Assembly (NCBI GenBank): GCA_902606835.1
Contig: CACLHW010000005.1
Coordinates: forward strand, 1-64,000
Reading direction: 5' to 3'
Length of the DNA: 64,000 bases
Source: an uncultured Pelagibacteraceae bacterium
Lineage (GTDB): Bacteria; Pseudomonadota; Alphaproteobacteria; Pelagibacterales; Pelagibacteraceae
The notes under the pieces were generated by a model. The model ran no database searches. It saw only the letters and a list, made by a program, of their open reading frames with translations, and was not told where the DNA came from. Every line of letters begins with the position of its first letter. Position 1 is the first letter of the stretch. Both the position numbers and the translations under genes were made by a program. Below, one piece after another: positions 10,241-49,233 of the stretch.

Positions 10241-10268
10241 TTGGCTAGCTATCTATATATAGTATGAT
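10241..10268 (+). promoter_or_regulatory. Probable sigma-70 promoter for small membrane protein gene
   Basis: TTGGCT and TATGAT separated by 16 bases. This predicts transcription starting near 10275 and a structured leader of about 68 bases before the ATG at 10343. It lies in the 220-base gap that divides the leftward SMR operon from the rightward small-protein pair. Confidence 0.55.
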
Positions 10269-10282
10269 ACTAAGACCCATAC

Positions 10283-10306
10283 GCTAACGATAGTTGATTC
10301 GTTAGC
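10283..10306 (+). other. Leader hairpin upstream of first small membrane protein
   Basis: GCTAACG and CGTTAGC form a perfect 7-bp stem with a 10-base loop. It lies in the predicted leader, 22 bases before the strong ribosome site AGGGAGGT (10328-10335). The CGTTAG core recurs in the hairpin after the gene at 10568. Confidence 0.55.
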
Positions 10307-10342
10307 ACTTGTTTAAACGAGTAACTCAGGGAGGTGTTAAGT

Positions 10343-10558
10343 ATGAAAATGCTTGCAGGTTTCGCGGGTACAGTACGTAGCCTAACTCATGTAGTAATTG
10401 CACTACTTGGATTAGGTATCGTTGTTTCCCTTTTGGGTGGAAATGTTCCATTCGTAAGCGGTATAGCTGACAATATAGTCGGACTAGTTCAGTCACTAGG
10501 TGATGCAGGAATAGTCGGCTTAATAGCAGCTATCATTATATTAGGTTTTTATAAATAG
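10343..10558 (+). CDS. Small two-helix membrane protein, paralogue A
   Basis: 71 residues from the ATG at 10343, seven bases after a near-perfect Shine-Dalgarno AGGGAGGT; a GTG inside that site is rejected as start. Two hydrophobic helices (about residues 14-32 and 52-70) flank a Gly/Asn loop, with the conserved centre LVQSLGDAGIVGLI. The next gene (10675) shares this architecture and the core LxxLGDxGIxxLI, so the two are a tandem duplicate pair. The combination of promoter, strong ribosome site and stable RNA hairpins suggests high expression. No known family was recognised. Holin-like, bacteriocin-like or membrane-organising roles are possible but unsupported. Confidence 0.75.
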   Translation: MKMLAGFAGTVRSLTHVVIALLGLGIVVSLLGGNVPFVSGIADNIVGLVQSLGDAGIVGLIAAIIILGFYK

Positions 10559-10567
10559 ATTTTATCT

Positions 10568-10599
10568 CGTTAGTTTTCCCTCTTAATAATTAACTAACG
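10568..10599 (+). other. Hairpin 1 between the paralogous small-protein genes
   Basis: CGTTAGTT and AACTAACG form a perfect 8-bp stem with a 16-base loop, starting 10 bases after the first small gene's stop. There is no following T-run, so it is more likely an mRNA-stabilising or processing structure than a terminator. Confidence 0.6.
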
Positions 10600-10612
10600 T
10601 TTAAAAACCTGA

Positions 10613-10644
10613 CTATCCTAGCCCGTGATTTTGGGCTAGGATAG
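10613..10644 (+). other. Strong 12-bp hairpin between the paralogous small-protein genes
   Basis: CTATCCTAGCCC and GGGCTAGGATAG form a perfect 12-bp stem around an 8-base loop. It is among the most stable structures in the window. It lacks a T-tract and is followed 30 bases later by the second gene, suggesting RNA processing, protection of the upstream message, or partial termination. Confidence 0.7.
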
Positions 10645-10674
10645 GGTTAGTAAAACAATAATTAAGGAGTTTCT

Positions 10675-10911
10675 ATGAAAGCTTGGATTGGAACAATAAG
10701 ATACTATTTAAGACAGTTCATTGAGCTAGGTTTACTATTGATTGGAGTTTCAGTATTTGCCGAGATATTATTTGGGCCCGATGTAGCTTTTTTTGGTTCA
10801 CAAGTTACTAAAAATTTGGTTGCTTTGCTTAATACGCTTGGTGACTCTGGTATAGCGGCACTAATTGTAATACTTGCTTTAATGATTGTTTACAGAAAAA
10901 TCTTAAAATAA
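10675..10911 (+). CDS. Small two-helix membrane protein, paralogue B
   Basis: 78 residues with an AAGGAG ribosome site 7 bases before the ATG. An amphipathic, Arg-containing N-terminus (IRYYLRQF) is followed by a first helix (ELGLLLIGVSVFAEILF), a loop, and a second helix after LLNTLGDSGIAALIVILALMIVY, ending in a basic tail (RKILK). It aligns along most of its length with the 71-residue protein encoded just upstream, sharing the LGDxGIxxLI core. The Pfam-style family, if any, was not recognised. Its gene ends 7 bases before the convergent methyltransferase gene. Confidence 0.75.
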   Translation: MKAWIGTIRYYLRQFIELGLLLIGVSVFAEILFGPDVAFFGSQVTKNLVALLNTLGDSGIAALIVILALMIVYRKILK

Positions 10912-19274: not shown

Positions 19275-19282
19275 GTCTATAT

Positions 19283-19340
19283 CCTCCGTTTTTAGTGCTT
19301 TGACGAATGTCGGGTGCACAATTCGGTTAAATACCCGGTT
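19283..19340 (-). ncRNA. SAM-V riboswitch overlapping the bhmT ribosome site
   Basis: Read on the minus strand, stem P1 is CGGGT (19337-19333) with ACCCG (19315-19311). The loop contains ATTTAACCGAATTG and the 3' part AAAGCACTAAAAACGGAGG, a close match to the SAM-II/SAM-V core. The pseudoknot pairs loop CCG with CGG, and that CGG runs directly into the GGAGG ribosome site (19287-19283) eight bases before the ATG. SAM binding should therefore block translation of bhmT. Confidence 0.85.
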
Positions 19341-19360
19341 TTAAATTGAAATTGAGTTTC

Positions 19361-49065: not shown

Positions 49066-49218
49066 CAAGCCCCCTCTGTCTAGTTACCTGAGAGATTTAC
49101 TCCTTCGGTGAGGCTAAGCCTTCTTTCCAGAGTTATTATGTGTACGGTCCTTCTGCCTGAGAGTTTCCGGGGTGGTTGCTCCTTCGGCGCTGCAATATTT
49201 AGCAGTCTCTCCCGCTTA
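49066..49218 (-). ncRNA. Tandem glycine riboswitch
   Basis: On the minus strand two glycine aptamers occur in series. Aptamer 1 (about 49218-49145) has GCGGGAGAGACTGC, CCGAAGGAGCAA and CTCTCAGGCAGAAGGACCG. Aptamer 2 (about 49140-49066) has CTCTGGAAAG, CACCGAAGGAGTAA and CTCTCAGGTAACTAGACAGAGG. It ends about 12 bases before the gcvT start, so control of translation or early transcription of gcvTHP is expected. Motifs are textbook examples of the class. Confidence 0.95.
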
Positions 49219-49233
49219 TTAAAGCTAGTCGAG

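Follow-up and report, generated by a model that had tools for sequence, protein, structure and literature searches.

Two adjacent genes in the 64-kb window (the whole stretch of SAR11 DNA analyzed here, from an uncultured Pelagibacteraceae bacterium) encode small membrane proteins, which we denoted P1 and P2, and are accompanied by structured RNA. A preliminary description, made from the sequence alone, had observed this tandem arrangement, and our analysis confirmed it. Beyond what that description expected, P1 and P2 belong to an unnamed family that is spread through the Alphaproteobacteria and has homologues in marine phages. The features of the locus are as follows.

10241..10268, + strand: candidate promoter, TTGGCT-16 nt-TATGAT, located by a scan
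10283..10306, + strand: leader hairpin H1, GCTAACGA-TAGTTGAT-TCGTTAGC, 8 bp, with a conserved GATTCG in the loop and 3' arm
10307..10322, + strand: leader hairpin H2, ACTTG-TTTAAA-CGAGT, a predicted fold directly 5' of the ribosome site
10328..10336, + strand: extended Shine-Dalgarno sequence of P1, AGGGAGGTG, a 7-nt exact anti-Shine-Dalgarno match
10343-10558, + strand: open reading frame of P1, a 71-residue two-TM hairpin protein
10568..10599, + strand: spacer hairpin H3, CGTTAGTT...AACTAACG, with CCCTC in the loop (10578-10582) and stem covariation
10613..10644, + strand: spacer hairpin H4, a perfect 12-bp stem with compensatory changes and no T-tract on the + strand
10664..10669, + strand: Shine-Dalgarno sequence of P2, AAGGAG, a 6-nt exact match
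10675-10911, + strand: open reading frame of P2, a 78-residue two-TM hairpin protein and paralogue of P1

Both open reading frames were present at the lengths reported in the preliminary description, which had called the proteins paralogous, and P1 and P2 aligned along their length with 30% identity (blastp, E 9e-8). They share the core LGDxGIxxLI, which reads LGDAGIVGLI in P1 and LGDSGIAALI in P2. The upstream neighbor, encoding an SMR-type small multidrug-resistance protein, and the downstream neighbor, encoding a methyltransferase, both lie on the opposite strand, so P1 and P2 form a unit of their own. Compared with close relatives, dN/dS ranged from 0.02 to 0.11 for P1 and from 0.03 to 0.18 for P2; both genes are under strong purifying selection. 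For the same genome pairs, dS was 0.25-1.0 in P1 versus 0.85-1.9 in P2, the synonymous divergence of P1 being about half that of P2. A lower dS would be expected from stronger expression of P1, and constraint on RNA structure or gene transfer could also produce it.

The preliminary description credited the unit with a good promoter. In favor of this claim, the TATGATA element was largely kept across 28 aligned leaders; the candidate nevertheless matched only 9 of 12 positions, and sites of comparable quality were no more numerous than chance (three found versus 3.1 expected from shuffles). The near-perfect ribosome site was borne out, since the 7-nt anti-Shine-Dalgarno match of P1 is longer than that of any of the 65 open reading frames of at least 100 aa compared in the window (maximum 6 nt). 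The rank of this site and the lower synonymous divergence of P1 lend indirect support to the suggested high, regulated expression of the pair, which is plausible.

The leader folds moderately better than its shuffles (z -2.19), and the 8-bp leader hairpin noted previously (10283-10306) is kept in relatives with changing sequence: seven or eight of its eight pairs can form in 39 of 46 relatives. The two arms paired at 7.9 of 8 positions when taken from the same locus and at 5.7 of 8 when taken from different loci, a comparison biased towards structure because the arms were picked for pairing. RNAalifold found no conserved structure in the 28 leaders, apparently because MAFFT set divergent stems out of register, and the arms were therefore matched locus by locus. 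H2 was absent from the preliminary description; similar short palindromes, as judged by eye, occupy its site in relatives. The proposed sharing of a CGTTAG stem by leader and spacer did not hold up, as the leader stem varies in relatives (GCTATCGA/TCGATAGC and others) with no matching change in the spacer stem. It should be noted that a GANTC-type sequence (GATTC or GAATC) is present in the leader hairpin of the window (10283-10306) and recurs in that of most relatives (loci L032-L076). GANTC is the CcrM methylation motif, although here it may be no more than a part of the stem.

The spacer between P1 and P2 folds far better than its shuffles (z -4.16) and contains the two hairpins that had been described, including the perfect 12-bp stem without a T-tract. 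With loops of 3-12, perfect stems reach 12 bp or more only three times in the whole 64 kb, H4 among them. In 16 relatives, standard pairs filled 97.2% of the cells of the two spacer stems, and 12 of 16 spacer pairs showed compensatory change on both sides (three of five counted pairs in H3 and nine of 11 in H4), versus a mean of 2.7 in shuffles and 2-5 in slid versions. Covariation of the stems had been proposed as a check, and leader and spacer stems alike proved to be conserved among relatives; both the leader stem and the long stem of the spacer are real RNA structures, maintained by compensatory changes. A long hairpin is also retained in the 57-92-base spacer of a second, distant SAR11 family. 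On the coding strand, no U-run follows H4 in the window and its near relatives; other loci, L056 and L063 among them, do have one, and H4 there resembles an ordinary terminator. On the minus strand, a T-run follows the 12-bp stem (10613-10644) and might stop antisense transcription.

A CCCTC, CCTCC, or CTCCC motif was found in 35 of 42 distinct spacers, which are related rather than independent, versus 4.2 expected from shuffles. In Alphaproteobacteria, the Cuckoo/CcaF RNAs carry CCUCC loops near small DUF1127 genes. The P1 spacer resembles them in placing a CCCTC/CCTCC-loop hairpin 3' of a small open reading frame. However, P1 is not a DUF1127 protein, and a covariance-model search of the leader and spacer against Rfam gave no match at the gathering score. 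Moreover, pairing energies between the CCCTC loop and the P1 Shine-Dalgarno sequence were no better than shuffles in the clade of the window and were good only in some other clades. Elsewhere in the window, the same search scored above the gathering threshold only for a SAM-V riboswitch (19281-19346, minus strand) and a glycine riboswitch (49135-49224, minus strand), both already known from SAR11.

The puf operon of Rhodobacter offers another parallel in having adjacent genes for small membrane proteins and an intercistronic hairpin loop; deletion of its hairpin region was the subject of a study of segmental mRNA stability, according to the title as cited (Klug et al. 1987, in PMC6238624). The proteins themselves are unrelated, P1 and P2 have no consistent pigment-binding histidine, and a stabilizing effect at the present locus is putative. 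We suggest that one transcript carries both P1 and P2, and that the spacer hairpin may act as a 3'-end stabilizer in the window and in a terminator-like manner in some relatives. With or without a U-run, H4 would favor a 3' end downstream of P1, leaving P1 mRNA in excess of P2 as in the puf analogy. Together with this analogy, the dS values and the strength of the P1 ribosome site lead us to infer that the spacer hairpin sets an output ratio in favor of P1.

Homologs had been proposed as a further check, and the pair turned out to be conserved well beyond one genome, in two families of the Pelagibacterales. In a 247-genome sample, P1 was present in about 31 genomes of the family of the window, nearly all of which also had P2. 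Within the genus of the window, 17 of the 23 genomes among those listed, most of them incomplete, carried the pair. All single-contig or fully assembled Pelagibacteraceae genomes among those listed were without it, which indicates that the pair is dispensable in that lineage. The second family had the pair in 39 of 53 genomes, and in 11 of the 12 that were at least 90% complete. P2 followed P1 at every locus with a long enough contig, and the pairing of the two genes in SAR11 is near-obligate. In a 63-row tree, P1 of both families formed one group (86/92), so that the two genes probably arose by duplication before these SAR11 families diverged; P2 of both families did not resolve as one group in this short alignment. 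The genomic surroundings vary. Pelagibacteraceae loci have an SMR transporter and a methyltransferase, NlpC/P60 and MFS genes, PALP, or a PQQ propeller as neighbors. In loci L168-L183 of the second family, the pair lies between a gene for an FAD-binding monooxygenase and an amino-acid ABC transporter, one strand being used throughout. As the neighbors differ between clades, the pair has no consistent genetic partner.

The family extends further within the class. A profile built from both SAR11 families and the phages (A5) was run on a class-wide sample of 289 genomes and detected members in 30 other alphaproteobacterial genomes (E 1e-14 to 1e-24); in some of these genomes, two copies lie side by side. 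These members align over their full length with the SAR11 proteins. The result overturned an apparent restriction to the Pelagibacterales that had come from the first profile (A3) and a phylum-wide sample; in the phylum-wide sample, A5 found no genome beyond that of the window. Within the sampled genomes, the family seems to be confined to Alphaproteobacteria, mostly to families that a proportional draw rarely reaches. Locus L077, from a Diapherotrites bin, was rejected as a member, since its similarity appears to be a chance resemblance in the C-terminal part of a larger membrane protein. Searches of Pfam, NCBIfam, and PHROG yielded no convincing family match in 64, 61, and 29 scanned members, and neither a PDB sequence search nor a fold search gave a match. 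In the libraries searched, the proteins are thus an undescribed small-protein system, as had been suggested.

AlphaFold models of moderate confidence (pTM 0.38 for P1 and 0.41 for P2; mean pLDDT 76 and 80) placed helices at residues 2-30, 36-54, and 57-70 of P1 and 3-33, 42-55, and 57-77 of P2. Both proteins share one plan: helix 1 is long, helix 2 is short and follows FG, and a break at LGD precedes the last helix. Over 29 members, the N-terminus has K+R versus D+E counts of 62/29, the loop 12/30, and the C-terminus 56/9, so that by the positive-inside rule both termini would be cytoplasmic. Helix 1 would cross the membrane, the short helix 2 with FGxxVxFxGGDIVGN would lie at the periplasmic face, and the chain would return through the last helix after LGxxGLVGLIA.

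Glycines occupy alignment columns 58, 61, and 64 in 27, 29, and 28 of the 29 members. This G-x2-G-x2-G run and a few other residues are the nearly invariant positions, and the three-residue spacing of the glycines suggests that the helices pack closely. The acidic residue of LGD is not among the nearly invariant positions, being D in 12 members, N in 8, and S in 7, and a nearby glycine alone is invariant. Near-invariant glycines together with a variable acid favor a structural, oligomerizing role over catalysis or ion carriage. Subunit c of ATP synthase has an invariant ion-binding carboxylate in helix 2, and a likeness to it was rejected on account of the same variable residue. The alignment further showed that polar TM1 residues typical of the family are kept in P2 and lost in P1.

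We suggest that the proteins, with no catalytic residue of their own, oligomerize into a small membrane assembly that would alter membrane permeability or energetics or steady a larger complex. In SAR11, the gene would have been duplicated, P2 retaining the family-typical residues of TM1 and P1 not. The family, pairing, selection, conserved RNA stems, and phage carriage are computed observations, whereas oligomerization, membrane modulation, the excess of P1, and a benefit to phages are inferred; no neighboring gene recurs steadily enough to serve as a functional partner. We therefore hold tentatively, and at somewhat less than an even chance, that P1 and P2 represent a small oligomerizing inner-membrane hairpin protein of roughly 70-80 residues, duplicated in SAR11, with a spacer hairpin biasing output towards P1.

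The pair could instead be accessory subunits or regulators that tune one specific transporter, of the amino-acid ABC type. In the second SAR11 family, SBP_bac_3 lies immediately downstream on the same strand in the three loci scanned, with BPD_transp_1 next in the one tested, and the other loci listed for that family have the same layout of open reading frames. The Pelagibacteraceae neighbors named above do not include this transporter, however, and other Alphaproteobacteria and the phages again have different neighbors, which makes this explanation unlikely.

The phage homologs, all in single copy, were found on IMG/VR contigs in at least three marine phage contexts. In the first (five contigs), the phage is T4-like and the gene, as read on the longer contig, has a gp21-type protease gene on one side and scaffold/gp23-like genes on the other; in the second (two contigs), it lies between dUTPase and Hsp20/DNA polymerase genes; and in the third, with 205 confirmed matches, it comes just after a class II ribonucleotide reductase gene in the contigs read. 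All 85 phage loci checked had one copy. With tblastn, nothing in the phage collection matched up to a threshold of E 10, for which low-complexity masking is the probable cause, and four isolate or fosmid phage records were instead profile-scanned in parts, with no homolog found. IMG/VR contig L163, in which positions 1-252 (the first 43 residues of a SAR11-identical P1) are joined to T7-like structural genes, was set aside as a probable assembly chimera. Loci L085-L162 represent a large group of uncultured, podovirus-like marine phages that carry class II ribonucleotide reductase and whose DNA polymerase is nearest to those of pelagiphages HTVC103P/104P (44% identity); the one 10-kb stretch tried was not closely related at the DNA level to any phage of the collection. 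Marine phages would have acquired single copies more than once, presumably so as to maintain or change the same membrane property during infection.

The Imm protein of T4 is a small membrane protein that blocks the entry of superinfecting phage DNA. By comparison, a host copy of the present protein might block DNA entry and a phage copy might exclude competitors, as would suit a small membrane protein that is patchy in the Pelagibacteraceae and is carried, within differing genome modules, by several lytic-type phage lineages. Such superinfection exclusion or anti-phage action is quite unlikely: the very slow protein evolution and the near-universal presence in near-complete genomes of the second family are unlike most defense genes, and no defense genes were among the neighbors scanned. 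A holin-like pore, serving phage lysis and persisting as a pore in hosts, would fit the size, the two-TM hairpin plan, and the charged C-terminus, and on one phage contig a candidate endolysin, peptidase-like, lies some 1.4 kb downstream. There was no holin family match, though, an endolysin is not adjacent in the head-gene or ribonucleotide reductase contexts, and a lethal pore would harm a host that expressed it strongly, so that we regard this explanation as very unlikely. Assignment as a class II holin by a lysis-cassette test was likewise rejected, the phage neighbors being gp21/scaffold/gp23, ribonucleotide reductase, or dUTPase/Hsp20 genes rather than endolysin. That the chromosomal copies have no cellular function and are left over from phages or mobile elements, as phage homologs and a varying genomic location might suggest, is already disfavored by selection (dN/dS far below 1 in both genes), by the wide cellular range, and by the retention of both the gene order and the spacer hairpin in two families, and is extremely unlikely.

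Two known types of two-TM protein bear comparison with the membrane assembly that we favor. VirB2/TrbC-type pilins and related proteins of conjugative elements are two-TM hairpins of similar length. Weak stray matches to conjugative families were obtained with TIGR03745 (2.5e-4, one member, the best stray match to any family), NF010426 (0.019, three members), and DUF2976 (0.004, one member). VirB2/TrbC pilins have periplasmic termini and a basic cytoplasmic loop. A type IV secretion pilin was rejected, as the charges of the present family predict the reverse topology, most members had no match, and no type IV secretion genes were among the neighbors scanned. Pmp3/YqaE proteins (RCI2, UPF0057) are tiny two-TM proteins with a reported action on membrane potential and ion homeostasis (PMC3278423, PMC7835403). 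They are like P1 and P2 in size, in the two-TM plan, and in having an unclear mechanism; membership was rejected, since PF01679 was not among the Pfam matches of the scanned members.

A broader account is possible though doubtful. It would make the proteins an alphaproteobacteria-wide membrane-assembly family, captured by several lytic marine phage lineages as a host-derived auxiliary gene, and in SAR11 a two-subunit assembly with its stoichiometry written in a conserved intercistronic hairpin. SAR11, a group with tiny genomes, ranks with the most abundant bacteria on Earth, and a conserved gene pair with no family name in such a group is a real gap in knowledge. The occurrence of the same small protein in several distinct phage lineages would suggest that its membrane function is important while phages infect, and the gene goes unnamed in the family libraries searched. 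The spacer provides a testable case of an intercistronic hairpin that would set an output ratio in a streamlined genome; judging by analogy, the folded RNA between P1 and P2 probably sets the amount of each protein that is made.
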